From Streptomyces sp. NRRL F-2580 (lineage in GTDB: Bacteria; Actinomycetota; Actinomycetes; Streptomycetales; Streptomycetaceae): DNA of 64,000 nt. The position numbers were made by a program, and so were the translations under genes. The DNA is taken from positions 62,001 to 126,000 of the forward strand of contig NZ_JOIR01000010.1 in the NCBI RefSeq assembly GCF_000720115.1, written 5' to 3'. Positions 26,392 through 61,213 of the stretch are shown here, one piece after another (position 1 is the first letter of the stretch; each line of letters starts with the position of its first letter). Under the pieces are notes generated by a model. That model was not told where the DNA came from, did no database searches, and worked only from the letters and a program-made list of their open reading frames with translations.

Positions 26392-27781
<1,390 letters not shown>

Positions 27782-27785
<4 letters not shown>

Positions 27786-30286
27786 CCGTCACCACTACGG
27801 CCGCCTCCGGAGGAGACGCGGCCGTTCCGCCCGCGGACCTGGTGTCGCTGACCATCGACGGTGCCGAGCTGTCCGTGCCCAAGGGCACCCTCGTCATCCG
27901 GGCCGCCGAACAGCTCGGCATCGAGATCCCCCGGTTCTGCGACCACCCCCTCCTCTCCCCCGCCGGCGCCTGCCGCCAGTGCATCGTCGAGGTCGAGGGC
28001 CAGCGCAAGCCGATGGCCTCCTGCACCATCACCTGCACCGACGGCATGGTCGTCAAGACCCAGCTGACCTCCGAGGTCGCCGACAAGGCCCAGCGCGGGG
28101 TGATGGAGCTGCTGCTCATCAACCACCCGCTGGACTGCCCGGTCTGCGACAAGGGCGGCGAGTGCCCGCTGCAGAACCAGGCGATGTCGCACGGCAACGC
28201 CGAATCGCGGTTCGAGGGCAGGAAGCGCACCTACGAGAAGCCGGTCCCGATCTCCACGCAGGTGCTGCTGGACCGCGAGCGCTGCGTGCTGTGCGCCCGC
28301 TGCACCCGCTTCTCCAACGAGATCGCCGGCGACCCGATGATCGAGCTGCTGGAACGCGGCGCGCTCCAGCAGGTCGGCACCGGCGAAGGCGACCCCTTCG
28401 AGTCGTACTTCTCCGGCAACACCATCCAGATCTGCCCGGTCGGCGCCCTCACCTCGACCGCGTACCGGTTCCGCTCCCGCCCGTTCGACCTCGTCTCCTC
28501 CCCGAGCGTGTGCGAGCACTGCGCGGGCGGCTGCGCGACCCGTACCGACCACCGCCGCGGCAAGGTGCTGCGCCGCCTCGCCGCGGAGGACCCCGAGGTC
28601 AACGAGGAGTGGGTCTGCGACAAGGGGCGGTTCGCCTTCCGATACGCCCAGCAGCGCGACCGCTTGGAAACCCCGCTGGTGCGCAACTCCGCCGGGGTGC
28701 TGGAGCCGGCGAGCTGGCCCGAGGCCCTGGAGGCCGCGGCCAACGGGCTCGCCGCCGCGCGCGGCCGGGCCGGGGTGCTCACCGGCGGCCGGCTGACCGT
28801 CGAGGACGCCTACGCGTACGCCAAGTTCGCCCGGGTCGTGCTCGACACCAACGACATCGACTTCCGGGCCCGCGTGCACAGTGCGGAGGAGGCCGAGTTC
28901 CTGGCCGCCACCGTCGCCGGCACCGGCAAGGACCTCGACGGCAGGGGCGTCACCAACGCCTCGCTGGAGGCGGCCCCGGCCGTCCTCCTCGTCGGCATCG
29001 AGGCGGAGGAGGAGGCCCCCGGCGTCTTCCTGCGGCTGCGCAAGGCCCACCGCAAGCACAAGCAGCGGACCTTCGCCCTCGCCCCGTTCGCCACCCGCGG
29101 CCTGGAGAAGACGGGCGGCACGCTGCTGGCCGCCGCCCCCGGCACCGAGCCGGAGTGGCTGGACGCACTGGCCTCCCGGACCGGCCTGGAGGCCGGCGGG
29201 CCCGCGGCCGCCGACGCGCTGCGCGCGCCCGGCGCCGTCATCGTGGTCGGGGAGCGGCTCGCCGGGGTTCCCGGCGCGCTGTCCGCCGCCGTACGGGCGG
29301 CCGCCGCGACCGGCGCGAAGCTGGTGTGGATCCCGCGCCGGGCCGGTGAGCGGGCCGCCGTCGAGGCGGGCGCGCTGCCGTCCCTGCTGCCGGGCGGCCG
29401 CCCGGCCACCGACCCGCGGGCCCGCGACGAGGTCGCCACCGCCTGGGGCCTGGACGAGCTCCCGCACCGCTACGGCCGCGACACCGGCCAGATCGTCGAG
29501 GCCGCGGCCTCCCGCGAGCTCTCGGCCCTGCTGGTCGCGGGCGTCGAGGTGAGCGACCTGCCGGATCCGGTCCGCGCGCGGATCGCCCTCCAGGAGGCCT
29601 TCGTGGTCTCCCTGGAGCTGCGGCCCGGCGAGGTCACCGCCCACGCGGACGTGGTCCTCCCGGTCGCCGCAGTGGCCGAGAAGGCCGGCGCGTTCATCAA
29701 CTGGGAGGGCAGGGTCCGCCCCTTCGAGGCGGCGCTCAAGCCTGACCAGATGACCCGCCGGCTCGCCCCGGCCGACGCCCGCGTGCTCCACATGCTGGCC
29801 GACGCCGCCGACCGGCCGATCGCGCTGCCCGACGTGCACGCCGTACGCCGGGAGCTCGACGCGCTCGGCCCGTGGGCCGGCGAGCGCGCCGCCGAACAGT
29901 CCGCCGACACCGCGCCGCTGCCCCGCCCGGGCATCGGCGAGGCGGTCCTCGCGGGCCATCGGCTCCTCCTCGACCTGGGCCGGCTCCAGGAGGGCGACGA
30001 GGCCCTGGCCGGCACCCGGCACGAGGCGAGCGCCCGGCTGTCGGCCGCCACGGCCGCCGAGACGGGCGTCAAGGACGGCGACGTCCTCGCGGTGACCGGG
30101 CCGGCCGGCTCCGTGGAACTCCCGCTGCGGATCACCGAGATGCCCGACCGCGTGGTCTGGCTCCCGCTGAACTCCACCGGCTCCGGCGTCCTCGCCGACG
30201 CCGGCGCCCGCCCGGGCAGCCTCGTACGCATCGGCCCGGCGACCCCGGCCGGCGCCGGCGACACCACTGCGGAGGTGGACGCGTGA
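27782..30286 (+). CDS. nuoG: NADH-quinone oxidoreductase subunit G
   Basis: 834 residues from ATG 27782. The N-terminal ferredoxin domain has Cys ligands in R-F-C-D-H-P and A-G-A-C-R-Q-C; further clusters are marked by [24 protein letters not shown] and [14 protein letters not shown] with a later W-V-C-D-K-G provides the extra cluster N7 found in some bacteria. The rest is a molybdopterin-oxidoreductase-like domain without cofactor, of relaxed sequence. It is the largest soluble subunit. Confidence 0.96.
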
Positions 30287-31650
30287 ACGCGGTACACGGT
30301 GACTTCGTACAACTGGCCGCGGAGGACCTGTCCCTGTTCGGCCGGGACGTCTGGTGGCTCGTCGTCCTCAAGGCGGTGTTCTGCTTCGCCTTCCTGATGG
30401 TGACCGTGCTCTTCTCCATCGTGTGGGAGCGCAAGGTCGTCGCCTGGATGCAGCTGCGCATCGGCCCCAACCGGCACGGCCCCTGGGGCATGCTCCAGTC
30501 GCTCGCCGACGGCGTGAAGCTGATGCTCAAGGAAGACCTCATCGTCAAGCGGGCCGACAAGGTGGTCTACGTCCTGGCCCCGATCATCGCGGCGATCCCG
30601 GCCTTCATGGCCATCGCGGTGATCCCCTTCGGGCCCGCGGACGACCAGGTCTCCATCTTCGGCCAGCGCACCAGCATGCAGCTGACCGACCTGCCCATCG
30701 CGATGCTCTACATCCTCGCGGTGGCCTCGGTCGGCATCTACGGCATCGTGCTGGCGGGCTGGTCCTCCGGCTCCACGTACCCGCTCCTCGGCGGACTGCG
30801 CTCCTGCGCGCAGATGATCTCCTACGAGATCGCCATGGGCGCGGCCTTCGCCTCGGTCTTCCTCTACTCCGGATCGATGTCGACCTCCGCGATCGTCGAG
30901 GCGCAGGAGGACCGCTGGTTCATCGTCCTGCTGCCGGTGTCCTTCATCATCTACGTCGTCACGATGGTCGGCGAGACGAACCGCGCCCCCTTCGACATGC
31001 CGGAGTCCGAGGGCGACCTCGTCGGCGGCTTCAACACCGAGTACTCGTCGATCAAGTTCGCGCTGTTCATGCTGGCCGAGTACGTCAACATGGTCACCGT
31101 CTCGGCGGTCTCGGTCACCCTCTTCCTGGGCGGCTGGCGGGCCCCGTACCCGATCAGCACCTTCTGGGAGGGCGCGAACCACGGCTGGTGGCCGATGCTC
31201 TGGTTCGTCCTCAAGGTGCAGCTGCTGCTGTTCTTCTTCATCTGGCTGCGCGGCACGCTGCCGCGCGTGCGCTACGACCAGCTGATGAAGCTCGGCTGGA
31301 AGGTGCTGATCCCGGTCTCCGTGGTCTGGCTGATGCTGGTCGCGACCGTCCGCGCGCTGCGCAACGAGGCGTACGACTTCAGCGAGATCGTCCTCTACGT
31401 CGGCGGCGGAGTCGTGGCGATCCTGCTGCTCTCCTTCGTCGCGGACCTCTTCCGTGACAAGCGCGAGAAGGCGCAGGCCGCCAAGGCCGTCGACGACGCC
31501 GCGCCCTTCGACCCGCTGGCGGGCGGATTCCCCGTACCGCCCAAGCCCGGCCAGCACCTGGCACCCGTACCCCGCAGGCGGCCTCGCAGCGAGCGGGAGC
31601 TGATTGTCAGTGGCGGGACGAATACTGAGAGTGACCGAGAGGAGGCTTGA
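30283..31650 (+). CDS. nuoH: NADH-quinone oxidoreductase subunit H
   Basis: 455 residues from GTG 30283 (4-nt overlap with nuoG). About eight transmembrane helices; signatures are [31 protein letters not shown] and [13 protein letters not shown]. NuoH joins the arms and forms part of the quinone tunnel. The C-terminus carries about 70 hydrophilic, Lys/Pro-rich residues beyond the last helix. Confidence 0.96.
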
Positions 31651-31653
31651 GAG

Positions 31654-32265
31654 ATGTCCGACGACGACAAGTGGCAGAACCCGGTGGCGGGCTTCGGCGT
31701 GACCTTCAAGGCCATGTTCAAGAAGCGCCTCACCGAGCAGTACCCGGAGCAGCAGAAGACGACCGCCCCGCGCTTCCACGGACGGCATCAGCTCAACCGG
31801 CACCCCGACGGTCTGGAGAAGTGCATCGGGTGTGAGCTGTGCGCCTGGGCCTGTCCCGCCGACGCGATCTACGTGGAGGGCGCGGACAACACCGAGGAGG
31901 AGCGCTACTCCCCGGGCGAGCGGTACGGCGCCGTCTACCAGATCAACTACGCCCGCTGCATCCTGTGCGGGCTGTGCGTCGAGGCGTGCCCGACCCGGGC
32001 CCTGACCATGACGAACGAGTTCGAACTGGCCGACGTCAGCCGTGAGTCGCTCATCTACACCAAGGAGCAGCTGCTCGCCGGCCTCACCGAGGGCATGGTC
32101 GAGGCTCCGCACGCGATGTACCCCGGCACGGAGGACACCGACTACTACCGCGGGCAGGTGACGGGGGCCGCCCCCGGCACGGTCCGCCAGGTCGCGGTCA
32201 CCAAGGGCGAGAAGCCCGTGGACGAGCCGGTCCAGGCGTCCAAGGCCGAGGAGGCGCAGGCGTGA
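31654..32265 (+). CDS. nuoI: NADH-quinone oxidoreductase subunit I
   Basis: 203 residues from ATG 31654 with GAGGAGG 8 nt upstream. Two ferredoxin motifs, [12 protein letters not shown] and [12 protein letters not shown], bind clusters N6a and N6b that pass electrons to N2 in NuoB. The C-terminal part (Y-Y-R-G-Q-V and an acidic tail) is longer than in many homologues. It overlaps nuoJ by 4 nt. Confidence 0.96.
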
Positions 32266-33068
32266 GCACCACCGCGGCAAGCCTCACCTCCACCGGCGAG
32301 GCCGTGCAGTTCTGGGTCCTCGGCACGGTCGCCGTCATCGGCGCCCTGGCCACGATCCTGATGAAGAAGGCCGTGCACAGCGCCCTCAGCCTGGCCGGGA
32401 CGATGATCATCCTGGCGGTCTTCTACCTCGCCAACGGGGCGTACTTCCTGGGCGTCGTCCAGGTCATCGTCTACACCGGCGCGATCATGATGCTCTTCCT
32501 CTTCGTGGTCATGCTCGTCGGCGTCACCGCCGCCGACTCCCTGAAGGAGACCATCAAGGGGCAGCGCTGGCTGGCCGCCCTGTGCGGGCTGGGCTTCGGC
32601 ATCCTGCTGATCGCCGGCATCGGCAACGCCAAGCTCACCCACTTCAACGGACTCGGCCGGATCAACTCCGCCGGACACGTCGAGGGCCTGGCACAGCTGA
32701 TCTTCACCAAGTACGTCTTCGCCTTCGAGATCACCGGCGCGCTGCTGATCACCGCGGCCGTCGGCGCGATGGTGCTCACCCACCGCGAGCGCACCGAACG
32801 GGCCGCCACCCAGCGCGAGCTGGCCGAGAAGCGCGTCCGCGAGGGCGTGCAGCTCCCGCCGCTGCCCGCGCCCGGCGTCTACGCCCGGCACAACGCGGTG
32901 GACGTGGCCGGTCTGCTGCCGGACGGCACCCCGTCCGAGCTGACGGTCAGCAAGACGCTGCGCGCCCGCGGCCAGATCCGTGACGTGTCGAGCGAGGCGC
33001 TGAACGACCTGAAGGCGCTGGAGCAGGCGTCGGCGGAGCGCCTCGGCCGCGAGGAGGCATCCAAGTGA
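32262..33068 (+). CDS. nuoJ: NADH-quinone oxidoreductase subunit J
   Basis: 268 residues from GTG 32262. Five transmembrane helices with [17 protein letters not shown] in helix 3, which holds the pi-bulge that rearranges during turnover. A hydrophilic C-terminal segment of about 90 residues extends beyond the helices, as in other actinobacterial NuoJ. Overlaps nuoK by 4 nt. Confidence 0.95.
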
Positions 33069-33364
33069 ATCCGGTCAACTACCTGTACCTGGCGGCCCTG
33101 CTGTTCACCATCGGCGCGACCGGCGTGCTGATCCGCAGGAACGCGATCGTGCTGTTCATGTGCGTCGAGCTGATGCTCAACGCCTGCAACCTCGCCTTCG
33201 TCGCCTTCTCGCGGATGCACGGCAACCTCGACGGCCAGATCATCGCGTTCTTCACGATGGTCGTCGCCGCCGCGGAGGTCGTGGTCGGCCTGGCGATCAT
33301 CGTGTCGCTGTTCCGTACCCGCCACTCGGCCTCGGTCGACGACGCCAGCCTGATGAAGCTGTAA
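33065..33364 (+). CDS. nuoK: NADH-quinone oxidoreductase subunit K
   Basis: 99 residues from GTG 33065. Three helices containing the conserved membrane glutamates in C-V-E-L-M-L-N-A and A-A-A-E-V-V-V-G, which take part in proton transfer. Standard length for the MrpC-like subunit. Confidence 0.96.
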
Positions 33365-33373
33365 GGGGTCGCT

Positions 33374-35314
<1,941 letters not shown>

Positions 35315-35315
35315 A

Positions 35316-36908
35316 ATGAGTTTCCCGCTTCTGACGGTGACGGCCGCGGTCCCCGCGGCCGGCGCGATCCTGACGGCGGCCGTCCCGGCCGCCCGCAGGA
35401 CTGCCGCCAAGTGGCTCGCGCTGTTCTTCTCGCTGGCGACACTGGCCCTGGCCGTGCTCGTCGCGGTCCGCTTCGACCCCGGTGGCGACCGCTACCAGCT
35501 CACCGAATCCCGCCCCTGGATCGCCGACTTCGGCGTCCGCTACGAACTGGGCGTCGACGGGATCGGGGTGGTCCTCATCGGGCTCACCGCGCTCCTGATC
35601 CCCTTCGTGATCGCGGCCGGCTGGCACGACGCCGACCCCCTGGAGACCAAGAGCTCCCGGTGGCGGCCGACCCAGGGCTTCTTCGCCCTGATCCTGCTGG
35701 TCGAGGCGATGGTGATCATCTCCTTCGAGGCCACCGACGTCTTCCTCTTCTACATCTTCTTCGAAGCCATGCTCATCCCGATGTACTTCCTCATCGGCGG
35801 CTTCGGGGACCGGGCGCATTCCGGTACCGACGAGAACGCGGCCGCGCAGCGCTCGTACGCGGCGGTCAAGTTCCTCCTCTACAACCTGGTCGGCGGCCTG
35901 ATCATGCTGGCCGCCGTCATCGGGCTGTACGTGGTCGCCGGGAACTTCTCGCTCCAGGAGATCACCGCCGCCCGCGCCGCGGGCACGCTCGACATGGCGA
36001 CCAACACCGAGCGGCTGCTCTTCCTCGGCTTCTTCTTCGCCTTCGCGGTGAAGGCCCCGCTGTGGCCGCTGCACACCTGGCTGCCGAACGCGATGGGCGA
36101 GTCCACCGCCCCGGTGGCCGTCCTGATCACCGCGGTCGTCGACAAGGTCGGCACCTTCGCGATGCTCCGCTTCTGTCTCGGGCTCTTCCCGGACGCCAGC
36201 AAGTGGGCCACGCCGGTGATCCTGGTCCTGGCCCTGATCAGCATCGTCTACGGGGCGCTGGTCGCGGTCGGTCAGCGGGACATCAAGCGGCTGGTCGCCT
36301 ACGCCTCGATCTCGCACTTCGGCTTCATCATCCTGGGCATCTTCGCGATGACCTCCCAAGGCCAGTCCGGCGCCACCCTCTACATGGTCAACCACGGCCT
36401 GTCGACGGCGGCGCTGATGCTGGTGGCCGGCTTCCTGATCTCGCGGCGCGGCTCGCGGCTCATCGCCGACTACGGAGGCGTCCAGAAGGTGGCCCCGGTC
36501 CTCGCCGGCACCTTCCTGATCGGCGGCCTCGCCACCCTCTCGCTGCCGGGCCTCGCGCCCTTCGTCAGCGAGTTCCTGGTCCTGGTCGGCACGTTCGCCC
36601 GGTACCCGGTCGTCGGCATCATCGCCACCGTCGGCATCGTGCTCGCCGCGCTCTACACGCTGGTGCTCTACCAGCGCACGATGACCGGCCCCGTGAAGGA
36701 GGAGGTCCGCACGATGCCGGACCTGCGCCTGCGGGAGCTGCTGGTGGTCGCCCCGCTGATCGCGCTGCTGATCGGGCTGGGCGTCTACCCGAAGGTGCTC
36801 ACCGACATCGTCAACCCGGCGGTGGAGCACACCATGTCGGACGTGAAGCAGACGGACCCGAAGCCCGAGGTGGCTGTCGAGGCCAAGAACGGGGAGGCGG
36901 CGAAGTGA
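35316..36908 (+). CDS. nuoM: NADH-quinone oxidoreductase subunit M
   Basis: 530 residues from ATG 35316, 1 nt after nuoL. An antiporter-like subunit with about 14 helices; signatures are F-Y-I-F-F-E-A-M-L-I-P-M-Y, W-P-L-H-T-W-L-P-N-A-M-G-E-S-T-A-P-V and D-I-K-R-L-V-A-Y-A-S-I-S-H. The conserved Glu in F-F-E-A and Lys in V-K-A-P-L-W belong to the proton channel. It overlaps nuoN by 4 nt. Confidence 0.96.
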   Translation: MSFPLLTVTAAVPAAGAILTAAVPAARRTAAKWLALFFSLATLALAVLVAVRFDPGGDRYQLTESRPWIADFGVRYELGVDGIGVVLIGLTALLIPFVIAAGWHDADPLETKSSRWRPTQGFFALILLVEAMVIISFEATDVFLFYIFFEAMLIPMYFLIGGFGDRAHSGTDENAAAQRSYAAVKFLLYNLVGGLIMLAAVIGLYVVAGNFSLQEITAARAAGTLDMATNTERLLFLGFFFAFAVKAPLWPLHTWLPNAMGESTAPVAVLITAVVDKVGTFAMLRFCLGLFPDASKWATPVILVLALISIVYGALVAVGQRDIKRLVAYASISHFGFIILGIFAMTSQGQSGATLYMVNHGLSTAALMLVAGFLISRRGSRLIADYGGVQKVAPVLAGTFLIGGLATLSLPGLAPFVSEFLVLVGTFARYPVVGIIATVGIVLAALYTLVLYQRTMTGPVKEEVRTMPDLRLRELLVVAPLIALLIGLGVYPKVLTDIVNPAVEHTMSDVKQTDPKPEVAVEAKNGEAAK

Positions 36909-40016: not shown

Positions 40017-42791
40017 TCAGGCGCGGCCGGCGTACGCGCGGACGTCCGCGTCCGGGTCCGTGACCGCCGTGGCGAGCGCCGCCCGGGCCGCCGCGGTGTC
40101 CCGGTGGGCCAGCAGGGCGAGGACCGCGGCCTTGCGCACATCGGCGTTGTCGTCGGCCAGCGCCCCCGCCAGGGCCGGTACGGCCGCCCCGGGCGCGGCG
40201 GCCGACAGCGCGGCGGCCGCCCCGGCCCGGACCTGCCAGGCGGCGTCCGCCAGGGCCGCCACCGCCCTCCCGGCGTACCCTGCGGGGCAGCCGGCCGAGG
40301 CCAGCGCCGCCAGGGCGGCGCCCCGCACCAGCGGATCCGGGTCGCCCAGCAGCGGGTCCAGCGGGGCCGGGGCCGGGGCGTGCACCGAGGCCAGCCCCTT
40401 GGCCACCGCCACCCGGACCTCGCGGGCCGGATCCGCCGCGGCCGCGGCCAGCGCCGGGACCGCGTCCACCGAGACCAGGGCCCGCACCGCGTGGATGCGG
40501 ACCTCCGGGTCGGCATCGGCCAGCGAGGCCGCGTACAGCCCGGCGTCGCCCAACCGCAGGGCCCGCAGGGCTTCGAGCGCGGCCGAGCGCACCGCCGCGT
40601 CGGGCACGGCCAGCGCGGTGCGCAGCCCGGCCGCCAGCTCCGGCCCGCCCGGCAGCACCTCCACCAGCTCGCGCAGCGCGGCCGCCGCGGCCGCCCGGAC
40701 GGCGGGGGCCGTGTCCGCGAGCCGTGCGGCCAGGGCGGGCCCGGCCCCCGCGGGGACGGTCTCGCCGAGCGCGGCGACGGCCGCCGCCCGGACCGCGGGA
40801 TCGGGGTCGTCGAGATAGGGGCCCAGGAGGTCCAGGCCGGGTGACTCCTCCGCCAGGGCGAGCAGTTCCAGGATCCGGGGCGAGGCGCTCCCGGCCGGCT
40901 CGGCGGGCGGGTCCTCCGGTCCGGCGGCCCCCTCCGTAGTCAGGGCCCCCACGAGCCCGGCCTCCCCGCCCGCGGGCCCGGCGTCCGACGGCCGCCCGGC
41001 CCCGGGCGCCGGTGGTGCTTCCGCCCGCCCCGCCGTGGCCACCGGCACCAGGGCGACCTCGCCCAGGTGCCGCGAGGGGCCGCCGGCCGGGGCGAACCCG
41101 TCCACCGGCACCAGGTACGGCTCCACCGGCCGGGCCGTGAACTCCATCGCGCCCGAGGCCGACTTGCGCAGGTCGAGGTGGTGCAGCCAGCCGGTGTCGT
41201 CGCGCTCCGGGTGGTCGAGCCGCTCGTGGTAGAGGCCCCAGCGGGACTCCGTACGGGCCAGCGAGGAGCGGGCCGCCATCTCCGCGCAGTCGCGGATGAA
41301 GGACACCTCCGCGCACCGCATCAGCTCGTGCGCCGTGGTCGCGCCCATCTCCGCGATCTCGCCGGTCATCCGGTCGAAGGCCGCCACGGCGAGGGAGAGC
41401 TTCGCGCCCGTCTTCGGCGGGGCGACGTAGTCGTTCACGAACCGCCGCAGCTTGTACTCCACCTGCGGCTGCGGCGGCCCGTCCGGATGGCGCAGCGGCC
41501 GGTAGATCAGCTCGTGGGCCGCCGCCACCTGGCCGGCCGGCAACTCGCCCTCGTACGCCGCGTACCGGGCCGCGTCCGCGCCCGCCAGATCGCCGAAGAC
41601 GAACGCCCCGATCATGTAGTTGTGCGGTACCGACGCCAGGTCCCCGGCCGCGTACAGCCGCGGAACCGTGGTGCGGGCGTGGTCGTCGACGCGGACGCCC
41701 GAGGCCGAGTGGCCCCCGCACAGCCCGATCTCCGAGATGTGCATCTCGATGTCGTGCGTGCGGTAGTCGTGGCCGCGGCCCGCGTGGAAGGTGCCGCGCG
41801 TCGGGCGCTCGGTGGTGTGCAGGATCGACTCCAGCGAGGCCACCGACTCCTCGGGAAGGTGGCTGAGCTTCAGGTACACCGGGCCGCGGTCCGAGGCGAG
41901 TTCGGCCGCGAACTCCGCCATCATCTGCCCCGACCAGTAGTCGGAGTCCACGAAGCGCTCGCCGTGCCGGTTGACCTGGTAGCCGCCGAAGGGGTTCGCC
42001 ACGTAGGCGCACGCCGGCCCGTTGTAGTCCTTGATCAGCGGGTTGATCTGGAAGCACTCGATCCCGGTGAGGGCCGCGCCCGCGTGGTACGCCATCGCGT
42101 ACCCGTCCCCGGCGTTGGTCGGGTTCTCGTACGTCCCGTACAGGTACCCGGAGGCGGGCAGTCCGAGGCGCCCGCACGGGCCGGTCGCCAGGATCACCGC
42201 CCCCGCGCGCACCGTCACGAAGGCGCCCGTGCGGGTGTTGAAGGCGGCCGCGCCGACCGTCCGGCCGTCCTCGGGCGAGGTGAGGACGCGCACCGGCATC
42301 ACCCGGTTCTCGATCCGGATCCGCTCCCGCATCTCGCGGCGCCGCAGCTGCCGGTAGAGGACCTTCTTGACGTCCTTGCCCTCGGGCATGGGCAGCACGT
42401 ACGAGCCCGAGCGGTGGACCTGGCGCACCGCGTACTCGCCGTGCTCGTCCTTCTCGAACTTCACCCCGTACGACTCCAGCCGCTGCACCATCGCGAACCC
42501 GCGGGTGGCGGTCTGGCGGACCGTGGACTGGTCGACGACGCCGTCGTTGGCGCGGGTGATCTCGGCGACGTAGTCGTCGGGCTCGGCGCGGCCCGGGACG
42601 ACGGCGTTGTTGACGCCGTCCATGCCCATGGCGAGCGCGCCGGAGTGGCGTACGTGGGCCTTCTCCAGCAGCAGGACGCGGGCCCCGTGCTCGGCGGCGG
42701 TCAGCGCCGCCATCGTGCCGGCGGTGCCGCCGCCGATGACGAGGACGTCGCAGGAGAGTTCCTCGGCGTCGCCGATCGCGGGGATGTCCAC
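40017..42791 (-). CDS. AprA/FrdA-like flavoprotein fused to nine HEAT repeats
   Basis: 924 residues from GTG 42791, with GAAAGG 7 nt upstream. Residues 1 to about 565 are a fumarate reductase/succinate dehydrogenase-type flavoprotein: FAD motif G-G-G-T-A-G (20-25), L-L-L-E-K, S-G-A-L-A-M-G, N-P-F-G-G-Y, and A-A-G-D-L-A near residue 385. The stretch G-M-D-G-V-N-N with D-D-Y-V recalls dissimilatory APS reductase AprA. After a Pro/Ala/Gly linker (about 565-635), residues 638-924 carry nine HEAT-like units, each around D-P-x-x-x-V-R-x-x-A. It is the last gene of a six-gene set with a dicluster ferredoxin and an ABC importer. The substrate is unknown. Confidence 0.85.
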   Translation of the reverse strand: MDIPAIGDAEELSCDVLVIGGGTAGTMAALTAAEHGARVLLLEKAHVRHSGALAMGMDGVNNAVVPGRAEPDDYVAEITRANDGVVDQSTVRQTATRGFAMVQRLESYGVKFEKDEHGEYAVRQVHRSGSYVLPMPEGKDVKKVLYRQLRRREMRERIRIENRVMPVRVLTSPEDGRTVGAAAFNTRTGAFVTVRAGAVILATGPCGRLGLPASGYLYGTYENPTNAGDGYAMAYHAGAALTGIECFQINPLIKDYNGPACAYVANPFGGYQVNRHGERFVDSDYWSGQMMAEFAAELASDRGPVYLKLSHLPEESVASLESILHTTERPTRGTFHAGRGHDYRTHDIEMHISEIGLCGGHSASGVRVDDHARTTVPRLYAAGDLASVPHNYMIGAFVFGDLAGADAARYAAYEGELPAGQVAAAHELIYRPLRHPDGPPQPQVEYKLRRFVNDYVAPPKTGAKLSLAVAAFDRMTGEIAEMGATTAHELMRCAEVSFIRDCAEMAARSSLARTESRWGLYHERLDHPERDDTGWLHHLDLRKSASGAMEFTARPVEPYLVPVDGFAPAGGPSRHLGEVALVPVATAGRAEAPPAPGAGRPSDAGPAGGEAGLVGALTTEGAAGPEDPPAEPAGSASPRILELLALAEESPGLDLLGPYLDDPDPAVRAAAVAALGETVPAGAGPALAARLADTAPAVRAAAAAALRELVEVLPGGPELAAGLRTALAVPDAAVRSAALEALRALRLGDAGLYAASLADADPEVRIHAVRALVSVDAVPALAAAAADPAREVRVAVAKGLASVHAPAPAPLDPLLGDPDPLVRGAALAALASAGCPAGYAGRAVAALADAAWQVRAGAAAALSAAAPGAAVPALAGALADDNADVRKAAVLALLAHRDTAAARAALATAVTDPDADVRAYAGRA

Positions 42792-42802
42792 GGTGCTGCC
42801 TT

Positions 42803-43564
42803 TCAGAGAGAGTCGATGATCTGCTGCCGCAGGGCGGCACGGGCCGGCGCGCGCTCGCGGTCGCGGGGATGCGGTACGGAGACCACCTCGCCGGTGCCGA
42901 GCAGGGCGACGCGGTCCCCGACGAACAGGGCCTCGTCCACGTCGTGGGTGACGAAGACGACGCTCGCGCCGGTGCCGGCGAGGACGTCCACGAGGAGGTC
43001 CTGCATCTCGGCCCGGGTCTGGGCGTCGAGCGCCCCGAAGGGCTCGTCCATCAGGACGGCGCGCGGGCGCGCGGCGAGGGCGCGGGCCAGCTGCACGCGC
43101 TGGCGCTGCCCGCCGGAGAGCTGGTGCGGGAGCCGGTGGGCGTGGCCGCCGAGCCCGACGCGCTCCAGCCACTCCTCGGCGACCCGCCGCCGCTCGGCGC
43201 GCGGCAGCCGGCGGGAGCGCCGGATGGCGAGGGGGAGTTCGACGTTGGCGCGGACCGTGCGCCAGGGGAGCAGGGCGTCGTCCTGGAAGACCAGGGCGCG
43301 GTCGGCGGCCGGGCCGGTCAGCGGCCGCCCGTCCTGCTCGACCGTGCCGCCCAGCGGCGGCAGCAGGCCGGCCAGGGTGCGCAGCAGCGTCGACTTCCCG
43401 CATCCGGACGGGCCCACGACGGCCAGCACTTCCCCGGCCTCGACCGTCAGGTCGACCCCGTCGAGCACCACGTGCCCGCGGTGGCCGAGCCGTACCCCGC
43501 GCAGGGCGAGGGTGGCGCCGGGCCTTTGGGCGGCGTCGGGTTTCCGGGTGGTCAGGGTGGTCAC
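42803..43564 (-). CDS. ABC importer ATPase, nitrate/sulfonate/taurine type
   Basis: 253 residues from GTG 43564, overlapping the permease stop by 4 nt. Walker A is G-P-S-G-C-G-K-S-T-L-L-R, Q-loop V-F-Q-D-D-A-L-L-P-W-R-T, signature L-S-G-G-Q-R-Q-R, Walker B A-V-L-M-D-E-P-F-G-A-L-D, and the switch V-T-H-D-V-D-E-A. V-F-Q-D-x-x-L-L-P-W is typical of the SsuB/TauB/NrtD group. The flavoprotein gene starts 12 nt after the stop. Confidence 0.93.
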   Translation of the reverse strand: MTTLTTRKPDAAQRPGATLALRGVRLGHRGHVVLDGVDLTVEAGEVLAVVGPSGCGKSTLLRTLAGLLPPLGGTVEQDGRPLTGPAADRALVFQDDALLPWRTVRANVELPLAIRRSRRLPRAERRRVAEEWLERVGLGGHAHRLPHQLSGGQRQRVQLARALAARPRAVLMDEPFGALDAQTRAEMQDLLVDVLAGTGASVVFVTHDVDEALFVGDRVALLGTGEVVSVPHPRDRERAPARAALRQQIIDSL

Positions 43565-44436
43565 TTCTGCGTCCCTCCGGTGGTCGTGCCCTGCGGGGCC
43601 GGTGCGCTCGAACGCCGCGCGGGCTGAACAGAGGGGCGGGGCCGAGGCGGGGTGGCGGGGGACGAGGACACGGCGGCGCGGGGGAGCCAGGACGTCAGGC
43701 GGCGGCCCGCGCGTTCCACGGCCGTGGAGGTCAGCCAGCCCAGCGCGCCGATGGTGACCATGCCGACGAAGACGCCCGGGTAATCGACCACCGTGTAGTC
43801 CTGCCAGGTGCGGTAGCCGACCCCGTACTCGCCGGAGATCATCTCGGCCGAGATCACGCAGATCCACGAGACGCCGATGCCGACCGACAGGCCCCCGAAG
43901 ATGCCCGGCAGGGCCCCCGGCAGGACCACGGAGAACAGCACCCGCGCCCGCCCGCCGCCCATCGTCAGGACGGCCTCCTCCCACACCGGGGCCAGCGCCC
44001 GCACCGCGTGCCGCGTCGAGACCAGCACCGGGAAGAAGGCGGCCGCGCAGGTGATGAAGACGATCCCCTGCTCGTTGGAGGGGAACATCAGGATCGCCAC
44101 CGGGACCAGCGCGATGGCCGGGATCGGACGCAGCACCTCCAGCAGCGGGCCCAGTACGTCGGCCGCGATCCGGGACCGGGCGACGGCCGTGCCCACCACC
44201 ACGCCCAGGACGGCGGCGAGCACGAAGCCCGTCACGATCCGGCGCAGGCTGGAAGCCAGGTCCTGCCAGTAGCCCGGGGTCCGGGCCCGCTCCGCGAACG
44301 TCGAGGCGATCTCCCCCACCGTCGGGAACTGCTCGAAGCGCAGCCACAGGTTCACGTCGAGCGAGGTCAGCCCCTGCCACAGGAGGAGCGCCGCCGCGAG
44401 CGAAGCCGCCCGCAGCAGCCAGCGGCCGCCCGTCAT
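43561..44436 (-). CDS. ABC importer permease, nitrate/sulfonate/taurine type
   Basis: 291 residues from ATG 44436 (4-nt overlap with the binding protein). About six transmembrane helices with a BPD_transp_1 coupling loop E-E-A-V-L-T-M-G-G-G-R-A-R-V-L-F-S-V-V-L-P-G-A-L-P. It is most like SsuC/TauC. The C-terminus has an extra 35 hydrophilic Pro/Ser/Arg-rich residues. It would import the ligand of the lipoprotein encoded just upstream. Confidence 0.92.
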   Translation of the reverse strand: MTGGRWLLRAASLAAALLLWQGLTSLDVNLWLRFEQFPTVGEIASTFAERARTPGYWQDLASSLRRIVTGFVLAAVLGVVVGTAVARSRIAADVLGPLLEVLRPIPAIALVPVAILMFPSNEQGIVFITCAAAFFPVLVSTRHAVRALAPVWEEAVLTMGGGRARVLFSVVLPGALPGIFGGLSVGIGVSWICVISAEMISGEYGVGYRTWQDYTVVDYPGVFVGMVTIGALGWLTSTAVERAGRRLTSWLPRAAVSSSPATPPRPRPSVQPARRSSAPAPQGTTTGGTQK

Positions 44437-45779
44437 GACGCCAGGGCCCCGGCCTCGGCGAAGCTCAGGATCCGCGCCCCGGATTCCCGGTGCTGGTCGA
44501 CGTACGCCGTGGCGCCCGCCTGCGTGACGAAGGCGCGCAGCTCCGGCCCCTCGGCCACCCACACCGCCTTGTCCGCGAACCACAGCGTGCCGGTCACGGC
44601 GTCCGGCACGTACGCCGCCCGGACGTCCGCGCCGCGCGCCGCCTTCAGCAGCTCGCGCGGGGAGTCGAAGGACTGCGTGCGGCTCTGGCCCTTCAGCCAC
44701 AGCTCGGACTGGGGGGCCGCCGCCTTCGGGTACTCCGGCGCGCCGGCCGCCGCCCGCCTCAGGGGCTCGGGGTCCACGAAGGAGTCCACGTCCACGTCGC
44801 CGACCAGCTTGCCCGCCTGTAGCACCGGCACGTCCTGCTTCAGGGCGTCGATCAGCTCGGGGCGCAGGGCGGGGTCGAAGGTGGCGATGCCGTTCGCGCC
44901 GTTGTAGAGGTACACGACCTCCGCCGGCAGGCCCGTCTCCTTCGCCACCGACTCGGCGGCCGCCACCGGCTCCGCGCGCAGGTGGTCGGTGGCCTTGCGC
45001 TGCGCCTTCAGGAAGTCGTCCAGTACGCCCGGCCGCTCCTTCGCGAACTTCTCGCGCACGGTGACCCCGTGGAAGGTCGGCAGGTTCAGCTCGGCGCCGT
45101 CGTACAAGGCCTTCGCCCTGCCCTCGTACGCCAGCTGCCCCGGCCACGCCACGAACTGCGACAGCGCGTCCGCGCTGCCCGCCTGGAGGGCCGAAGCTCC
45201 CACGCTGGGCTGCTGGTTGAGCTTCTGGATCCCGCTCTCCGGGTCGATCCCGGCGCGCTGCAGGGCCCGTACGAGGGTCCCGTCGGCGGCGGAGCCCACG
45301 CTGGTCGACACCTTCTTGCCGCGCAGGTCGGCGAGGGATCCGAGCTTCGAATCCGGCGCGGTGACGACGGTGTTGAGGCCGCCGCGCAGGTTGTAGCCGG
45401 TCACGGAGACGAGGTGGGTGGGCTGCTTGAGTTCCTTGCCGCGCGCCGCGTTGATGAGGAGCGGGAAATCACCCATCGAGCCGATGTCGATCTTCCCGGC
45501 GGTCATCTGGGCGGTGATCGGGGCGCCGGTGGCGTAGTCCTGCCAGTCCACCTTGTACGTGACGCCGTCCTGCTTGCCGCGCGCGGCGAGTTCCTGCTCG
45601 AAGTAGCCGAGGGAGCGCAGCAGGGTGCCGGCGGTGACGGTGTTGATGGTCTTGGACTGGTAGCCGACGGTCACGGTGACCGTCCTGGAGCCGGACGCCC
45701 CGGAGGCGTCGCCGCCGCAGGCCGTGGCGAGGGGGGCGAGCAGCAGGACGAGCGCGGGCGCGAGGGCCTTCGTACGCAT
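44433..45779 (-). CDS. ABC substrate-binding lipoprotein, sulfonate/nitrate type
   Basis: 448 residues from ATG 45779. A lipobox A-T-A-C (Cys21) anchors it. The two-lobed binding-protein fold of the SsuA/NMT1 group is seen from V-G-Y-Q-S-K-T-I-N-T through G-K-I-D-I-G-S-M-G-D-F-P and L-R-G-K-K-V-S-T-S-V-G-S. It is longer than SsuA (about 320), with an extra C-terminal region of about 110 residues (from L-R-R-A-A-A-G-A). The ligand cannot be read from the sequence; aliphatic sulfonates, taurine-like compounds or pyrimidine precursors are options. Confidence 0.9.
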   Translation of the reverse strand: MRTKALAPALVLLLAPLATACGGDASGASGSRTVTVTVGYQSKTINTVTAGTLLRSLGYFEQELAARGKQDGVTYKVDWQDYATGAPITAQMTAGKIDIGSMGDFPLLINAARGKELKQPTHLVSVTGYNLRGGLNTVVTAPDSKLGSLADLRGKKVSTSVGSAADGTLVRALQRAGIDPESGIQKLNQQPSVGASALQAGSADALSQFVAWPGQLAYEGRAKALYDGAELNLPTFHGVTVREKFAKERPGVLDDFLKAQRKATDHLRAEPVAAAESVAKETGLPAEVVYLYNGANGIATFDPALRPELIDALKQDVPVLQAGKLVGDVDVDSFVDPEPLRRAAAGAPEYPKAAAPQSELWLKGQSRTQSFDSPRELLKAARGADVRAAYVPDAVTGTLWFADKAVWVAEGPELRAFVTQAGATAYVDQHRESGARILSFAEAGALAS

Positions 45780-45793
45780 GGGGTTGGGGCCTT

Positions 45794-46021
45794 TCACCGG
45801 AGCAGATAGGGCATGTTGACGGTGACCGCGCCGGTGGGACAGCGGGCGGCGCACGGGCCGCAGTACCAGCACTCGTCCACGTGCATGTAGGCCTTGCCGT
45901 TGTCCTCGCGGATCGCGAGCGAGTCGAGCGGACACATGTCGACGCAGAGGGTGCAGCCGTCGATGCACAGGGACTCGTCGATGGTCACGGGCACGTCGCC
46001 GCGCTGGGGGACCAGAGGCAT
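45794..46021 (-). CDS. Dicluster 2[4Fe-4S] ferredoxin of the flavoprotein/ABC cluster
   Basis: 75 residues from ATG 46021. Eight cysteines in two motifs: Cys19, 23, 26, 30 (C-I-D-G-C-T-L-C-V-D-M-C-P) and Cys51, 54, 57, 61 (C-W-Y-C-G-P-C-A-A-R-C-P). The first has three residues between its first two Cys instead of two. The arrangement resembles the beta subunit of APS reductase, AprB, and its likely partner is the AprA-like flavoprotein encoded at the end of the operon. It lies 14 nt before the binding-protein gene and 33 nt after the GntR gene. Confidence 0.92.
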   Translation of the reverse strand: MPLVPQRGDVPVTIDESLCIDGCTLCVDMCPLDSLAIREDNGKAYMHVDECWYCGPCAARCPTGAVTVNMPYLLR

Positions 46022-46054
46022 GGCTGTCTCCAGGGAAGGGGGTGTGGCAGGGGT

Positions 46055-46825
46055 TCAGAGGGAGCGGCGCAGCAGGCCGCTCATGGTGATGCGGTCGCCG
46101 CGGAAGCGGATGAACTCCAGGTCCACGGGCCGGCCGTCGCGCAGGTGGGTGAGTCGTTCCAGCATCAGGACGGCGGCCCCGCGCGGGGCATGCAGGACGG
46201 CGGCGGAGTGCGCGTCGGCGTTGACGGCCTCAAGGGTGATCTCGGCGTGGCCGAGCGGCTGCCGGGTCAGCTGTTCCAGGAGCCGGAAGACGTCCGTGTT
46301 CTCCAGGTCGCAGCCCAGCAGTTCGGCGCCGATGTCCATCGGTACGTAGGTGAGGTCGAGGGAGAGCGGCAGTCCGTTCAGGCGCCGCAGCCGTTCGATG
46401 TAGAGCACGTCGGCGTGTTCGGGCAGGCCGAGGCGTCCGGCGACGGGGGCGGGGGCGCGCACGGGCCCGACGTTGCGGACCTCGTTGGTGACCCGGCCGT
46501 GCTCGTGCAGGGTCTCGGCCAGACCCTGCAGGCGGTCCAGGCCGTGCGGGTACTTCTCGCAGACGACGACGGTGCCGACGCCCGGCCGGCGCTCCACCAG
46601 CTGCTCGCCGCGCAGCAGGTCGAGGGCCTGGCGGACGGTGTTGCGGCCGGCGCCGTAGTCGGCGGCGAGGGTGCTCTCCAGGGGGAGGACCCCACCGGGG
46701 TAGCCGCCCGCCAGGATCTGGTGGCGGAGCAGGTCGGCGAGCTGTCGCGCCTGGTCCGCGCGCAGCCGCCGGCGGCGCGCGGCGGCGACCGGGACGGTGT
46801 GCGTGGCGGTGCGTTCGGCTGGCAT
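46055..46825 (-). CDS. GntR/HutC family regulator
   Basis: 256 residues from ATG 46825 (no good ribosome site; a downstream start is possible). An N-terminal winged helix (Q-L-A-D-L-L-R-H-Q-I-L, then L-A-A-D-Y-G-A-G-R-N-T-V-R-Q-A-L-D-L-L) is followed by a UTRA effector domain (about 95-250) ending in I-R-F-R-G-D-R-I. UTRA regulators bind small metabolites and usually repress adjacent catabolic operons, here the ferredoxin/ABC/flavoprotein genes. It is the first gene of the unit, so is likely self-regulating. Confidence 0.92.
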   Translation of the reverse strand: MPAERTATHTVPVAAARRRRLRADQARQLADLLRHQILAGGYPGGVLPLESTLAADYGAGRNTVRQALDLLRGEQLVERRPGVGTVVVCEKYPHGLDRLQGLAETLHEHGRVTNEVRNVGPVRAPAPVAGRLGLPEHADVLYIERLRRLNGLPLSLDLTYVPMDIGAELLGCDLENTDVFRLLEQLTRQPLGHAEITLEAVNADAHSAAVLHAPRGAAVLMLERLTHLRDGRPVDLEFIRFRGDRITMSGLLRRSL

Positions 46826-46858: not shown

Positions 46859-46876
46859 GTGTTGCCGCAGTGTTGC
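46859..46876 (-). promoter_or_regulatory. Direct repeat upstream of the GntR gene, candidate operator
   Basis: GTGTTGC occurs at 46859-46865 and again at 46870-46876 (11-bp period, one helical turn) 33 bp upstream of the regulator start. This face-repeated spacing is a common design for repressor binding, but GntR/HutC operators are usually palindromic, so the link is uncertain. Confidence 0.3.
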
Positions 46877-46964: not shown

Positions 46965-48188
46965 CTAGCGCTGTCCCACGATGCGGCCGGTGACCTCGCC
47001 GAGGCCGACGCGCGTACCGTCCGGGCCGGGGGCCCAGGCGGTGAGGGTGACGGTGTCCCCGTCCTCCAGGAAGGTGCGCTTGCCGTCGGCGAGCTCGATC
47101 GCGTCCCGGCCGTTCCAGGTCAGCTCCAGCAGCGAGCCGCGCTGGCCGGTCTCGGGGCCGCTGACGGTGCCGGAGCCGTACACGTCGCCGGTGCGCAGGG
47201 AGGCGCCGTTGACGGTCATGTGCGCGAGCTGCTGGGCGGCGGTCCAGTACATCGACGCGAACGGCGGCCGCGCCACCTCCTGCCCGTTGATGGAGACGGT
47301 GATGCGCAGGTCGAAGCCGCCGGGGCGGTCGAGCTCGGCGTCGTCCAGGTAGGGCAGGAGCGGGAAGTCCCGGGCGGGCGGGGCGACGCGGGCCGCGTCC
47401 AGGGCCTCCAGCGGGGTGACCCACGCGGAGACGGAGGTGGCGAAGGACTTGCCGAGGAAGGGGCCCAGCGGCACGTACTCCCAGGCCTGGATGTCGCGCG
47501 CGGACCAGTCGTTGAGCAGGAACAGCCCGAAGACGTGGTCCTCGAAGTCGGCCAGCGGCACCGGGCGGCCCAGCTCGGAGGGGGCGCCGACGACGAAGCC
47601 GACCTCCGCCTCGATGTCGAGCTTGACGGACGGGCCGAAGACGGGCGCCGGGTCGGTGGGTGCCTTGCGCTGCCCGGAGGGGCGTACGACGTCGGTTCCG
47701 GAGACCACGATCGTGCCGGAGCGGCCGTGGTAACCGATCGGCAGGTGCTTCCAGTTGGGCGTGAGCGCGTCGCCGTCGGGGCGGAAGATCCGGCCGACGT
47801 TGGTGGCGTGGTGCTCGCTCGCGTAGAAGTCGACGTAGTCGGCGACCTCGTACGGCAGGTGCAGCGTGACCTCGTCGAGCGGCAGCAGGTGCGCCTCGAC
47901 CGTGACCCGGTGGCCGGGGTCGGTCACCCAGGCGGTGAGCGCGCGGCGCACGTCGCGCCAGGTGGTGCGCCCGGCGGCCAGCAGCGGGTTGAGGGAGGAC
48001 CGCCCGAGCAGCCCGGCGTACGGGGAACCGAGCGCGGCGGCGGCCGCCCCCGCGTCGAGCACGTGCCCGCCGATCCGCACACCGATGCGGCGGCGGTCCT
48101 CGGCGGAGGTCGAGAAGACGCCGTACGGGAGGTTGTGCGGCCCGAACGGGTCGCCCTCGGGGAGATCGAGGGGGCTCTGCTGGGGCAT
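46965..48188 (-). CDS. fahA: Fumarylacetoacetase
   Basis: 407 residues from ATG 48188. The final enzyme of tyrosine/homogentisate catabolism, splitting 4-fumarylacetoacetate into fumarate and acetoacetate. Family motifs are D-Y-V-D-F-Y-A-S-E-H-H-A-T-N-V-G, W-K-H-L-P-I-G-Y-H-G-R, D-I-E-A-E-V-G-F-V-V and N-D-W-S-A-R-D-I-Q-A-W-E-Y, which contain the metal and substrate ligands. Length matches the two-domain eukaryote-like form. The gene stands alone here; other homogentisate genes are not in the window. Confidence 0.94.
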   Translation of the reverse strand: MPQQSPLDLPEGDPFGPHNLPYGVFSTSAEDRRRIGVRIGGHVLDAGAAAAALGSPYAGLLGRSSLNPLLAAGRTTWRDVRRALTAWVTDPGHRVTVEAHLLPLDEVTLHLPYEVADYVDFYASEHHATNVGRIFRPDGDALTPNWKHLPIGYHGRSGTIVVSGTDVVRPSGQRKAPTDPAPVFGPSVKLDIEAEVGFVVGAPSELGRPVPLADFEDHVFGLFLLNDWSARDIQAWEYVPLGPFLGKSFATSVSAWVTPLEALDAARVAPPARDFPLLPYLDDAELDRPGGFDLRITVSINGQEVARPPFASMYWTAAQQLAHMTVNGASLRTGDVYGSGTVSGPETGQRGSLLELTWNGRDAIELADGKRTFLEDGDTVTLTAWAPGPDGTRVGLGEVTGRIVGQR

Positions 48189-58067: not shown

Positions 58068-59144
58068 TCAGCCGACGACGGTCCAGGTGTCGTTGCCGGT
58101 CAGCAGCGCACCGAGGTCGCCCTTGCCGCTGCGGTCGATGGCCGTGTCGAGCTGGTCCGCCATGAGGGTGTCGTAGACGGGCCGTTCGACGCTGCGGAAG
58201 ACCCCGATGGGGGTGTGGTGCAGGGTGTCGGGGTCGGCCAGGCGGGAGAGCGCGAACGCCGTCGTGGGGCTGGCGGTCTTCGCGTCGTGGACCAGGATCC
58301 GCGACTCGTTGTCCGGGGTGACCTCCACGACCTCCAGGTCCCCGGTGGCCGGGTTGCGCACGACGCCCTTCGCGCCGTCCGCGCCGAAGCGGATCGGCCG
58401 GCCGTCCTCCAGCCGGATCACGGCCTCCAGCGCCTGGTCCCGGTCCTTGAGGACCTCGAAGGCGCCGTCGTTGAAGATGTTGCAGTTCTGGTAGATCTCC
58501 ACGAGCGCCGTGCCCTGGTGGTCGGCCGCCGCGCGCAGCACCTCGGTGAGGTGCTTGCGGTCGGAGTCGACCGTACGGGCGACGAAGGAGGCCTCGGCGC
58601 CGATCGCCAGCGACACCGGGTTGAACGGCGAGTCCAGCGAGCCCATCGGCGTGGACTTGGTGATCTTGCCGACCTCGGACGTGGGGGAGTACTGCCCCTT
58701 GGTCAGCCCGTAGATCCGGTTGTTGAACAGCAGGATCTTGAGGTTGACGTTGCGGCGCAGGGCGTGGATCAGGTGGTTGCCGCCGATGGAGAGCGCGTCC
58801 CCGTCGCCCGTGACCACCCATACGGACAGGTCGCGCCGGGAGGTGGCGAGGCCGGTGGCGATGGCGGGCGCACGGCCGTGGATGGAGTGCATCCCGTACG
58901 TGTTCATGTAGTACGGGAAGCGCGAGGAGCAGCCGATGCCGGAGACGAAGACGATGTTCTCCTTCGCCAGCCCCAGTTCGGGCATGAAGCCCTGGACGGC
59001 GGCGAGCACGGCGTAGTCGCCGCAGCCGGGGCACCAGCGGACCTCCTGGTCCGACTTGAAGTCCTTCATCGACTGCTTGGACTCGGCCTTGGGCACCAGC
59101 GAAAGCAGTGTGCGGGACCCGTCGGTCACGGTCACCTCAGTCAT
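58068..59144 (-). CDS. korB: 2-oxoacid:ferredoxin oxidoreductase beta subunit
   Basis: 358 residues from ATG 59144, with GAGGAGG 6 nt upstream inside the end of korA. It carries the thiamine diphosphate site (G-D-G-D-A-L-S-I-G-G-N-H and N-N-R-I-Y-G-L-T-K-G-Q-Y) and Cys ligands in R-W-C-P-G-C-G-D-Y and I-G-C-S-S-R. With KorA it oxidises 2-oxoglutarate (or another 2-oxoacid) to the CoA ester and reduces ferredoxin, an oxygen-tolerant alternative to the dehydrogenase complex in actinobacteria. The exact 2-oxoacid is inferred. Confidence 0.93.
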   Translation of the reverse strand: MTEVTVTDGSRTLLSLVPKAESKQSMKDFKSDQEVRWCPGCGDYAVLAAVQGFMPELGLAKENIVFVSGIGCSSRFPYYMNTYGMHSIHGRAPAIATGLATSRRDLSVWVVTGDGDALSIGGNHLIHALRRNVNLKILLFNNRIYGLTKGQYSPTSEVGKITKSTPMGSLDSPFNPVSLAIGAEASFVARTVDSDRKHLTEVLRAAADHQGTALVEIYQNCNIFNDGAFEVLKDRDQALEAVIRLEDGRPIRFGADGAKGVVRNPATGDLEVVEVTPDNESRILVHDAKTASPTTAFALSRLADPDTLHHTPIGVFRSVERPVYDTLMADQLDTAIDRSGKGDLGALLTGNDTWTVVG

Positions 59145-61080: not shown

Positions 61081-61122
61081 TGAACTGGACCTCCTTCGAG
61101 GCGTGAGCACCCCCAGAACCCA

Positions 61123-61138: not shown

Positions 61139-61213
61139 ATCAGGCTCCCCGGAGGCGACCACATTCTGGACCGTAGGACCGCCCCTTGAGACGACCCGAC
61201 CGGTATGCCGTAT

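Follow-up and report, generated by a model that had tools for sequence, protein, structure and literature searches.

A Streptomyces operon joining an APS-reductase-like flavoprotein and its ferredoxin to a sulfonate-type importer: a candidate sulfur-scavenging system

The actinobacterium Streptomyces sp. NRRL F-2580 encodes a six-gene operon in which a flavoprotein–ferredoxin pair related to adenylyl-sulfate (APS) reductase is joined to an ATP-binding cassette (ABC) importer of the sulfonate type. The operon lies on the minus strand at 40017–46825 of the stretch of DNA analysed here (64,000 nucleotides of contig NZ_JOIR01000010.1, positions 62,001 to 126,000; hereafter the window, numbered from its first letter). 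We put at close to an even chance the reading that this is a sulfur-scavenging operon, in which import of an organosulfur compound would be followed by ferredoxin-driven, reductive release of sulfite via a flavin adduct; the ligand class, the direction of the reaction and the adduct chemistry are the parts of this scheme that we infer. A first-pass annotation of the same DNA had suggested that the unit takes up a dedicated small molecule and processes it by redox chemistry, and the results below lend support to that idea, with an organosulfur compound as the probable ligand.

The flavoprotein and its family

The catalytic part of the 924 amino acid flavoprotein finds its best match in the Protein Data Bank (PDB) in the alpha subunit of the phosphoadenylyl-sulfate (PAPS) reductase of Methanothermococcus thermolithotrophicus (8a8o_A; E-value 2e-50 for the sequence alone, 9.3e-84 for a family profile), followed by A. 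fulgidus AprA. Against the APS reductase model PRK06854 it scores 257.6 bits where the cut-off is 557, making it kin to that family rather than a member. The protein as a whole belongs to NF010374/PRK13800.1 (1586.9 bits, cut-off 1196); on a second model, NF006131/PRK08275.1, the first part alone exceeds the cut-off (853 bits against 587). Both models carry the name fumarate reductase/succinate dehydrogenase flavoprotein subunit, as do most of the named entries among the matches listed; the nearest named matches are Streptomyces proteins at 98% identity.

In a maximum-likelihood tree of 33 proteins, the actinobacterial, cyanobacterial and proteobacterial members of the flavoprotein family form a single clade (support 100/99) that is sister to the sole AprA row (97/83) and stands apart from SdhA and NadB. 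On the adenylyl-sulfate reductase model (cut-off 557) the AprA reference (L015) reaches 755 bits; it matches 8a8o_A at 1e-184 and is adjoined by an AprB-like gene. Its branch is long and the tree program cautions that long branches are meeting; some care is therefore needed with the sister position. Two other flavoproteins in the tree, L025 (a long branch on the AprA side, below cut-off on the models shown) and L026 (a long branch near the base), may represent other unnamed lineages.

The last third of the protein, overlooked by the first-pass annotation, consists of HEAT repeats. This domain is modelled with confidence in the predicted structure (predicted local distance difference test scores mostly >90), the catalytic part poorly. 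In the actinobacterial loci it is fused to the flavoprotein, and in the relatives seen outside the Actinomycetota it is encoded by a gene of its own. Among 80 proteobacterial loci this gene lies downstream in 77, and the remaining three end at a contig edge.

The ferredoxin

The small ferredoxin encoded alongside matches the AprB chains 8a8o_C, 3gyx_B and 1jnr_B, with polyferredoxins scoring higher. Its second cluster motif is CWxC in 118/118 family ferredoxins (the window sequence and 117 loci, the sample used for all residue counts below), and the tryptophan of this motif aligns with Trp42 of the PAPS reductase beta subunit (8a8o_C, within CWDC). Flavoprotein and ferredoxin occur together in all 117 loci inspected for both, and the pair is present on cyanobacterial plasmids also. 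The first-pass annotation had described the two as mimicking the AprB/AprA pairing of APS reductase; the sister clade and the conserved relay tryptophan make this more than mimicry.

Elsewhere in the window lie a 2-oxoacid:ferredoxin oxidoreductase pair (POR_N/POR and TPP_enzyme_C; 58068–61164, minus strand), which could be a source of reduced ferredoxin or may be there by coincidence, and the complex I (nuo) genes (25770–36908, plus strand).

Active-site residues

In the published account of A. fulgidus APS reductase (PMC2211403), the sulfate of APS is contacted by Asn-A74 and His-A398 and, via water, by Arg-A265 and Trp-A234. Arg-A265 also contacts phosphate and ribose, and Trp-B48 relays electrons from the iron–sulfur subunit to flavin adenine dinucleotide (FAD). 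AprA numbering was set by hand on pairwise alignments and transferred through the multiple alignment. Two of the four sulfate-contacting residues are kept: the equivalents of Asn74 and His398 (N61 and H361 in the window) are conserved in 118/118 flavoproteins, and Arg265 is replaced by leucine (L252) and Trp234 by tyrosine (Y221), again in 118/118. The positions of Glu141 and Gln145, aligned to the PDB match by hand, have also changed with respect to AprA.

The pair thus appears to retain part of the equipment for holding a sulfo group and feeding electrons to the flavin, and to lack the arginine that reads the nucleotide. It is mainly this combination, Asn, His and the relay tryptophan kept and Arg265 lost, that points to a nucleotide-free sulfo compound as the likely substrate.

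Fumarate reductase, the annotated name, was considered and rejected. The flavoprotein clade stands apart from SdhA. E. coli SdhA has the motifs RGEGG and HGANRLG, which we take to be the sites of its catalytic arginines; the window protein lacks both and has ANPFGGY and VPHNYMIGAF in their place. Judged by these residues, the database name is misleading.

That the pair might be a genuine APS or PAPS reductase serving sulfate assimilation is very improbable. The sister position to AprA and the PAPS reductase alpha subunit as best structural match would fit such an enzyme. Set against them are the loss, in 118/118 sequences, of an arginine that contacts sulfate, phosphate and ribose, the changes at Glu141 and Gln145, and the make-up of the unit, whose six genes include no ATP sulfurylase and do include an importer, which would be pointless for APS. 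The genome has, moreover, a CysH-like gene (228.1 bits, cut-off 235.3) beside a sulfite reductase gene on another contig.

A conserved operon

Checked gene by gene through open reading frames (ORFs) and profile matches, the order, strand and families given in the first-pass annotation are borne out (Table 1). From 5′ to 3′ on the minus strand the genes encode a GntR/UTRA regulator, the ferredoxin, a binding lipoprotein, a permease, an ATPase and the flavoprotein. Successive intergenic gaps are only 33, 14, −4, −4 and 11 nt, and the six genes are therefore read as a single operon; the two 4-nt overlaps, both previously noted, join binding protein to permease and permease to ATPase. Neither an SdhB-type subunit nor a membrane anchor is among the six genes, the only place where these two were sought.

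Table 1. Features of the operon and its upstream region (window coordinates)
Feature	Position	Strand	Evidence or remark
GntR/HutC-type regulator with UTRA ligand domain, first operon gene	46055..46825	-	PF00392 1.3e-15, PF07702 1e-33
Dicluster 2[4Fe-4S] ferredoxin, 75 aa, AprB-like, CWxC Trp	45794..46021	-	PF12838 1.4e-9
Substrate-binding lipoprotein, predicted SsuA/TauA fold at about residues 31-351, extra C-terminal domain	44433..45779	-	
Extra C-terminal domain of the binding protein	44433..44717	-	NosL-like in some relatives (weak)
ABC permease, nitrate/sulfonate/taurine type	43561..44436	-	PF00528 1.5e-16
ABC ATPase, nitrate/sulfonate/taurine type, GTG start	42803..43564	-	PF00005 2e-33
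Flavoprotein, entire, 924 aa, GTG start at 42791	40017..42791	-	NF010374 1587 bits against cut-off 1196
Flavoprotein catalytic part, residues 1-600, FAD_binding_2 and Succ_DH_flav_C	40992..42791	-	APS/PAPS reductase alpha relative
Flavoprotein HEAT-repeat domain, about residues 640-924	40017..40874	-	PF13646 1.3e-27, PF02985
Operator-like direct repeat GCAACAYTNNNGCAACAC upstream of gntR	46859..46876	-	

A flavoprotein above the NF010374 cut-off is found in 43 of 121 genomes of the genus and in 8 of 246 genomes sampled from the phylum, the window's own being counted in both. Twenty actinobacterial loci were excised as stretches of 18–20 kb (17 from the same genus, three from another family), and the order GntR, ferredoxin, binding protein, permease, ATPase and flavoprotein-HEAT is seen in 20/20. 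Tsukamurella (L037) and Nonomuraea (L131) share this order as well, and with all these loci agreeing, the arrangement is not due to chance.

The family reaches well beyond the actinobacteria, to many bacteria of soil and water. Among 72,556 plasmid records, 51 match the flavoprotein at 1e-60, including records from rhizobia, Paraburkholderia, Methylocystis, Acidithiobacillus caldus, Acinetobacter and cyanobacteria. At least 592 relatives came from a scan of GTDB, and the best 80 of these (L046–L125), which are those nearest to a Cupriavidus protein and all proteobacterial, were inspected: GntR lies upstream of the flavoprotein in 78/80, a ferredoxin gene downstream in 80/80, and three importer genes between the ferredoxin and HEAT genes in 52/80. 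The first-pass annotation had named such a neighbourhood survey as a test of its proposal, which was to fall if ferredoxin and flavoprotein did not travel with the transporter; the three co-occur in other genomes, and so the proposal is not refuted by this test.

Several loci carry additional genes. A DUF971 (GBBH-like_N) gene lies downstream of the HEAT gene in 66/80 proteobacterial loci and a Mrp/NBP35 iron–sulfur carrier gene joins the module in cyanobacteria (L038, L039 and L045), both being possible iron–sulfur maturation partners. In Nostoc (L038, 9001–16410), genes for two HAD hydrolases, a methyltransferase, a GNAT protein and a VOC protein lie between flavoprotein and ferredoxin, all on one strand, which may mean a larger pathway and give a clue to the substrate.

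The importer and its ligand

The best matches of the binding protein, by both programs used, are SsuA and TauA. It is an SsuA/TauA-type protein, and a sulfonate is a candidate ligand. None of the three importer proteins reaches the NCBIfam cut-offs of SsuABC/TauABC-type models: the NtrB, TauC and SsuC models all stay under cut-off with the permease, as does the taurine ATPase model (2e-66) with the ATPase. Scanning the extra C-terminal domain in five binding proteins gave NosL matches in those of Acinetobacter (25.5 bits, Pfam cut-off 24), Variovorax (19.3) and Cupriavidus (14.2), and none in those of Tsukamurella and the window. NosL is a copper chaperone family; the domain might serve the importer in some metal-related or redox capacity.

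Should the imported compound contain no sulfur (an organonitrogen compound or a carboxylate, for example), the kinship to APS reductase would be one of fold only. We consider this improbable, given that SsuA and TauA head the matches of the binding protein, that the arginine motifs of SdhA and NadB, which we assume to be catalytic, are absent and that the sister row in the tree is APS reductase. A number of observations do nonetheless weigh against a sulfur substrate. Other ligands of SsuA-like folds are nitrate, bicarbonate and thiamin precursors, the NCBIfam name is that of fumarate reductase, and most loci have no adjoining sulfur gene, the actinobacterial ones resembling controls in this respect. 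Outside the operon, matches to sulfonate-type monooxygenases are found in 3/20 actinobacterial loci against 2/20 control stretches, and one of the two positive controls adjoins a positive locus; the controls were taken from the contigs that carry the test loci, and three of them (L187, L194 and L199) lie within ~5 kb of a test stretch and are not independent. The corresponding figure for the proteobacterial loci is 5/80, and the genes scanned to either side of the window's operon include no sulfur gene. Loci with sulfur neighbours are a minority, too few to decide the substrate.

Relation to known systems

The closest precedents known are dissimilatory APS reductase (AprAB) and the PAPS reductase 8a8o. 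With these the window system shares an FAD subunit and a small 2[4Fe-4S] subunit, the equivalents of Asn74, His398 and Trp-B48/Trp42, and its position in the tree. It differs from them in the two invariant replacements of Arg265 and Trp234, in a short ferredoxin that lacks the longer C-terminal part of AprB, in having a HEAT partner and an importer, and in its occurrence in Streptomyces, pseudomonads and cyanobacteria. In the fold of the binding protein and the families of permease and ATPase the importer resembles SsuABC and TauABC, from which it is set apart by its scores under the NCBIfam cut-offs and by the extra C-terminal domain that is NosL-like in some relatives.

A second precedent is the asfRABC cluster of Pseudomonas putida S-313. 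AsfA and AsfB, known also from C. metallidurans (Rmet_4334/5; PMC2864759), have been tied to sulfur scavenging, and are described as a reductase and a ferredoxin that are required, with an importer, for use of aromatic sulfonates (PMC4267179, PMC2864759). By hand interpolation between six tauD matches, ordered as the tauD numbers of PMC2864759, we placed Rmet_4334 at ~924 kb on the CH34 megaplasmid NC_007974.2. The sole flavoprotein/ferredoxin pair found on that replicon lies at 927.9–929.9 kb and is, on this interpolation, taken to be Rmet_4334/5. Like the window pair, it combines an FAD_binding_2 flavoprotein with an adjoining dicluster ferredoxin and has a sulfonate-type importer alongside. 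The relationship is remote, however, and identity with asfRABC was rejected. The CH34 pair is 26–28% and 32–33% identical to that of the window (26% over residues 11–556 for the flavoprotein, which forms a long, distant branch in the tree), the best matches on the megaplasmid (7.9e-14 or 1.3e-22) both being to another flavoprotein at ~895 kb. The CH34 ferredoxin has CQTC and so lacks the CWxC tryptophan, no HEAT match was found within 12 kb around the pair (tblastn, E up to 1e-3), and AsfR is described as a LysR protein where the window has GntR/UTRA. A search with C-terminal fragments gave 936 matches, and the name AsfA is not found among the best 120. The window system thus appears AsfAB-like in outline without being AsfAB, and from its sequence the flavoprotein fits none of three labels: fumarate reductase, canonical APS reductase or AsfA ortholog.

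A relative has already been listed as plasmid cargo. A figure legend in a 2025 paper (PMC12375680) assigns to plasmids, pTcM1 among them, one module termed 'ferredoxin/APS reductase/GntR' and another for a sulfonate transporter. The text of that paper refers to two operons with a predicted part in taking up and assimilating organosulfonates, which we read as the same modules. The pTcM1 locus of Fervidacidithiobacillus caldus (L043) has the same flavoprotein family, ferredoxin and GntR as the window, but a separate HEAT gene, ABC genes that lie apart and an FdxA gene that follows. The first-pass annotation had rated the unit its best candidate for an undescribed system, a claim that in this form lacks support: NCBIfam already holds two equivalog models for the flavoprotein (NF010374 and NF006131) and the plasmid paper has a relative. 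The enzyme is of a known kind, a flavin/iron–sulfur protein of the APS reductase type, and is here joined to a sulfonate-type importer. No experimental study of the flavoprotein family was found in the open-licence literature, and the available portions of PMC8557817 do not name the window's locus.

Sulfur genes and the direction of the reaction

The likeness to AsfA and AsfB suggests an alternative in which the pair is an electron-transfer chain only, supplying a flavin mononucleotide (FMN)-dependent monooxygenase that desulfonates aryl- or alkanesulfonates, brought in by the importer, with oxygen, as has been proposed for AsfA/AsfB in aromatic desulfonation. Some loci have sulfur neighbours, the exporters described below among them, which we count in favour of the sulfur-scavenging reading; the SsuE, NtaA/DmoA-family and SsuD-like genes of L179 and the SsuD-like genes of L131 and L133 would suit this alternative as well. 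In L179, genes for SsuE and NtaA/DmoA-family proteins as well as another SsuA-family binding protein exceed model cut-offs, and SsuD-like and DszC/SfnB-like genes fall under theirs. Nonomuraea (L131) has an SsuD-like gene, also under cut-off, and MetY- and MetX-like genes recognised by eye; Paraburkholderia (L133) has an SsuD-like gene together with 3-mercaptopropionate dioxygenase and rhodanese genes, and in Cupriavidus (L040) NtaA/DmoA-family and acyl-CoA-dehydrogenase-family genes lie nearby.

Against this alternative, the conserved unit includes no oxygenase, and the family has kept the sulfate-contacting Asn and His of APS reductase. An SsuD-like match at 1e-110 is missing from 12 of the 43 operon-bearing genomes of the genus, that of the window among them, which argues mildly against a mere supply of electrons to SsuD. 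SsuD-like genes occur in 31/43 genomes with the operon and 44/78 without, a weak and non-significant association (Fisher p 0.12), and none of these 75 positives in 121 genomes reaches the SsuD model cut-off, SsuD being the one FMN monooxygenase surveyed. On balance we regard a pure electron-transfer role as unlikely, though a serious competitor.

The chemistry might also run in the oxidative direction, sulfite from imported sulfonates adding to oxidised FAD and the electrons or the sulfo group being passed on, as a means of sulfite handling or detoxification. APS reductase chemistry is bidirectional, serving sulfate reducers in one direction and sulfur oxidisers in the other (PMC2211403), and three loci (L039, L045 and L127) have sulfite exporter genes adjoining the module, L039 and L045 a YeiH-type or sulfate exporter gene besides. 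Exporters are seen beside these three loci only, however, and for the nearest relative with a solved structure, the M. thermolithotrophicus enzyme, the reverse reaction was not measurable (PMC10322725). Since Arg265, which contacts AMP (adenosine monophosphate), is lost, AMP is also unlikely as an acceptor. Oxidation seems to us a rather distant prospect.

Regulation and flanking genes

The GntR gene stands first in 20/20 actinobacterial loci. The operator-like repeat GCAACAYTNNNGCAACAC upstream of it is the sole match with at most one mismatch in the 8.45 Mb genome, and with up to two mismatches the chance expectation in the window is 0.06. At this stringency the pattern is present in 16/17 same-genus loci, 0/3 other actinobacterial loci and 0/20 control stretches; as it was derived from the very loci in which it was counted, these figures describe conservation and are no test. 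They suggest a regulator dedicated to this operon, and GntR/UTRA is probably a dedicated autoregulator. In cyanobacteria, a 671 amino acid LysR protein (L039, 6658–8673, minus strand; homolog in L045) has a C-terminal half (~373–670) that aligns with the importer binding proteins, and may be a regulator with a built-in binding-protein-like sensor.

Immediately upstream of the operon and on the same strand lies a fumarylacetoacetase gene (46965–48188). A homolog is found near the operon, within the excised stretch, in 13/17 same-genus loci, and it is probably a neighbour through chromosome position rather than function.

A working model and its implications

In the sulfur-scavenging scheme, GntR/UTRA would sense the ligand and control this operon only. 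Lipoprotein, permease and ATPase would import a small organic compound bearing a sulfo (-SO3-) group, for which sulfonates, sulfamates, S-sulfonates and sulfate esters are the candidate classes. In the cytosol, the ferredoxin would dock on the flavoprotein in the manner of AprB on AprA, and electrons would pass via the CWxC tryptophan to FAD. N5 of the reduced FAD would then attack the sulfur, the remainder of the molecule would leave, and the flavin–sulfite adduct would decay to sulfite for use by the ordinary sulfite reductase of the cell. Such sulfite would have an outlet in this strain, as the genome carries a sulfite reductase gene beside the CysH-like gene.

Streptomyces, pseudomonads and cyanobacteria are mostly aerobic bacterial groups. 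A bolder claim, which we offer as tentative and hold to be somewhat doubtful, is that the pair is a stand-alone, oxygen-independent reductive desulfonase, an offshoot of APS reductase that would act on nucleotide-free sulfo substrates through a flavin N5–sulfite adduct in Streptomyces, pseudomonads, burkholderias, rhizobia and cyanobacteria alike.

Organic forms make up more than 95% of the sulfur in soil, and a review gives a monooxygenase system as the route for sulfonates (PMC4267179). If the scheme is right, a widespread APS-reductase-like branch with a sulfonate-type importer would represent a chemical route different from monooxygenase desulfonation, in a family of at least 592 GTDB relatives that has been hidden under the name of fumarate reductase. 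The residue pattern, two sulfo contacts kept and the phosphate-contacting arginine lost in every member inspected, allows the idea to be tested directly and cheaply.

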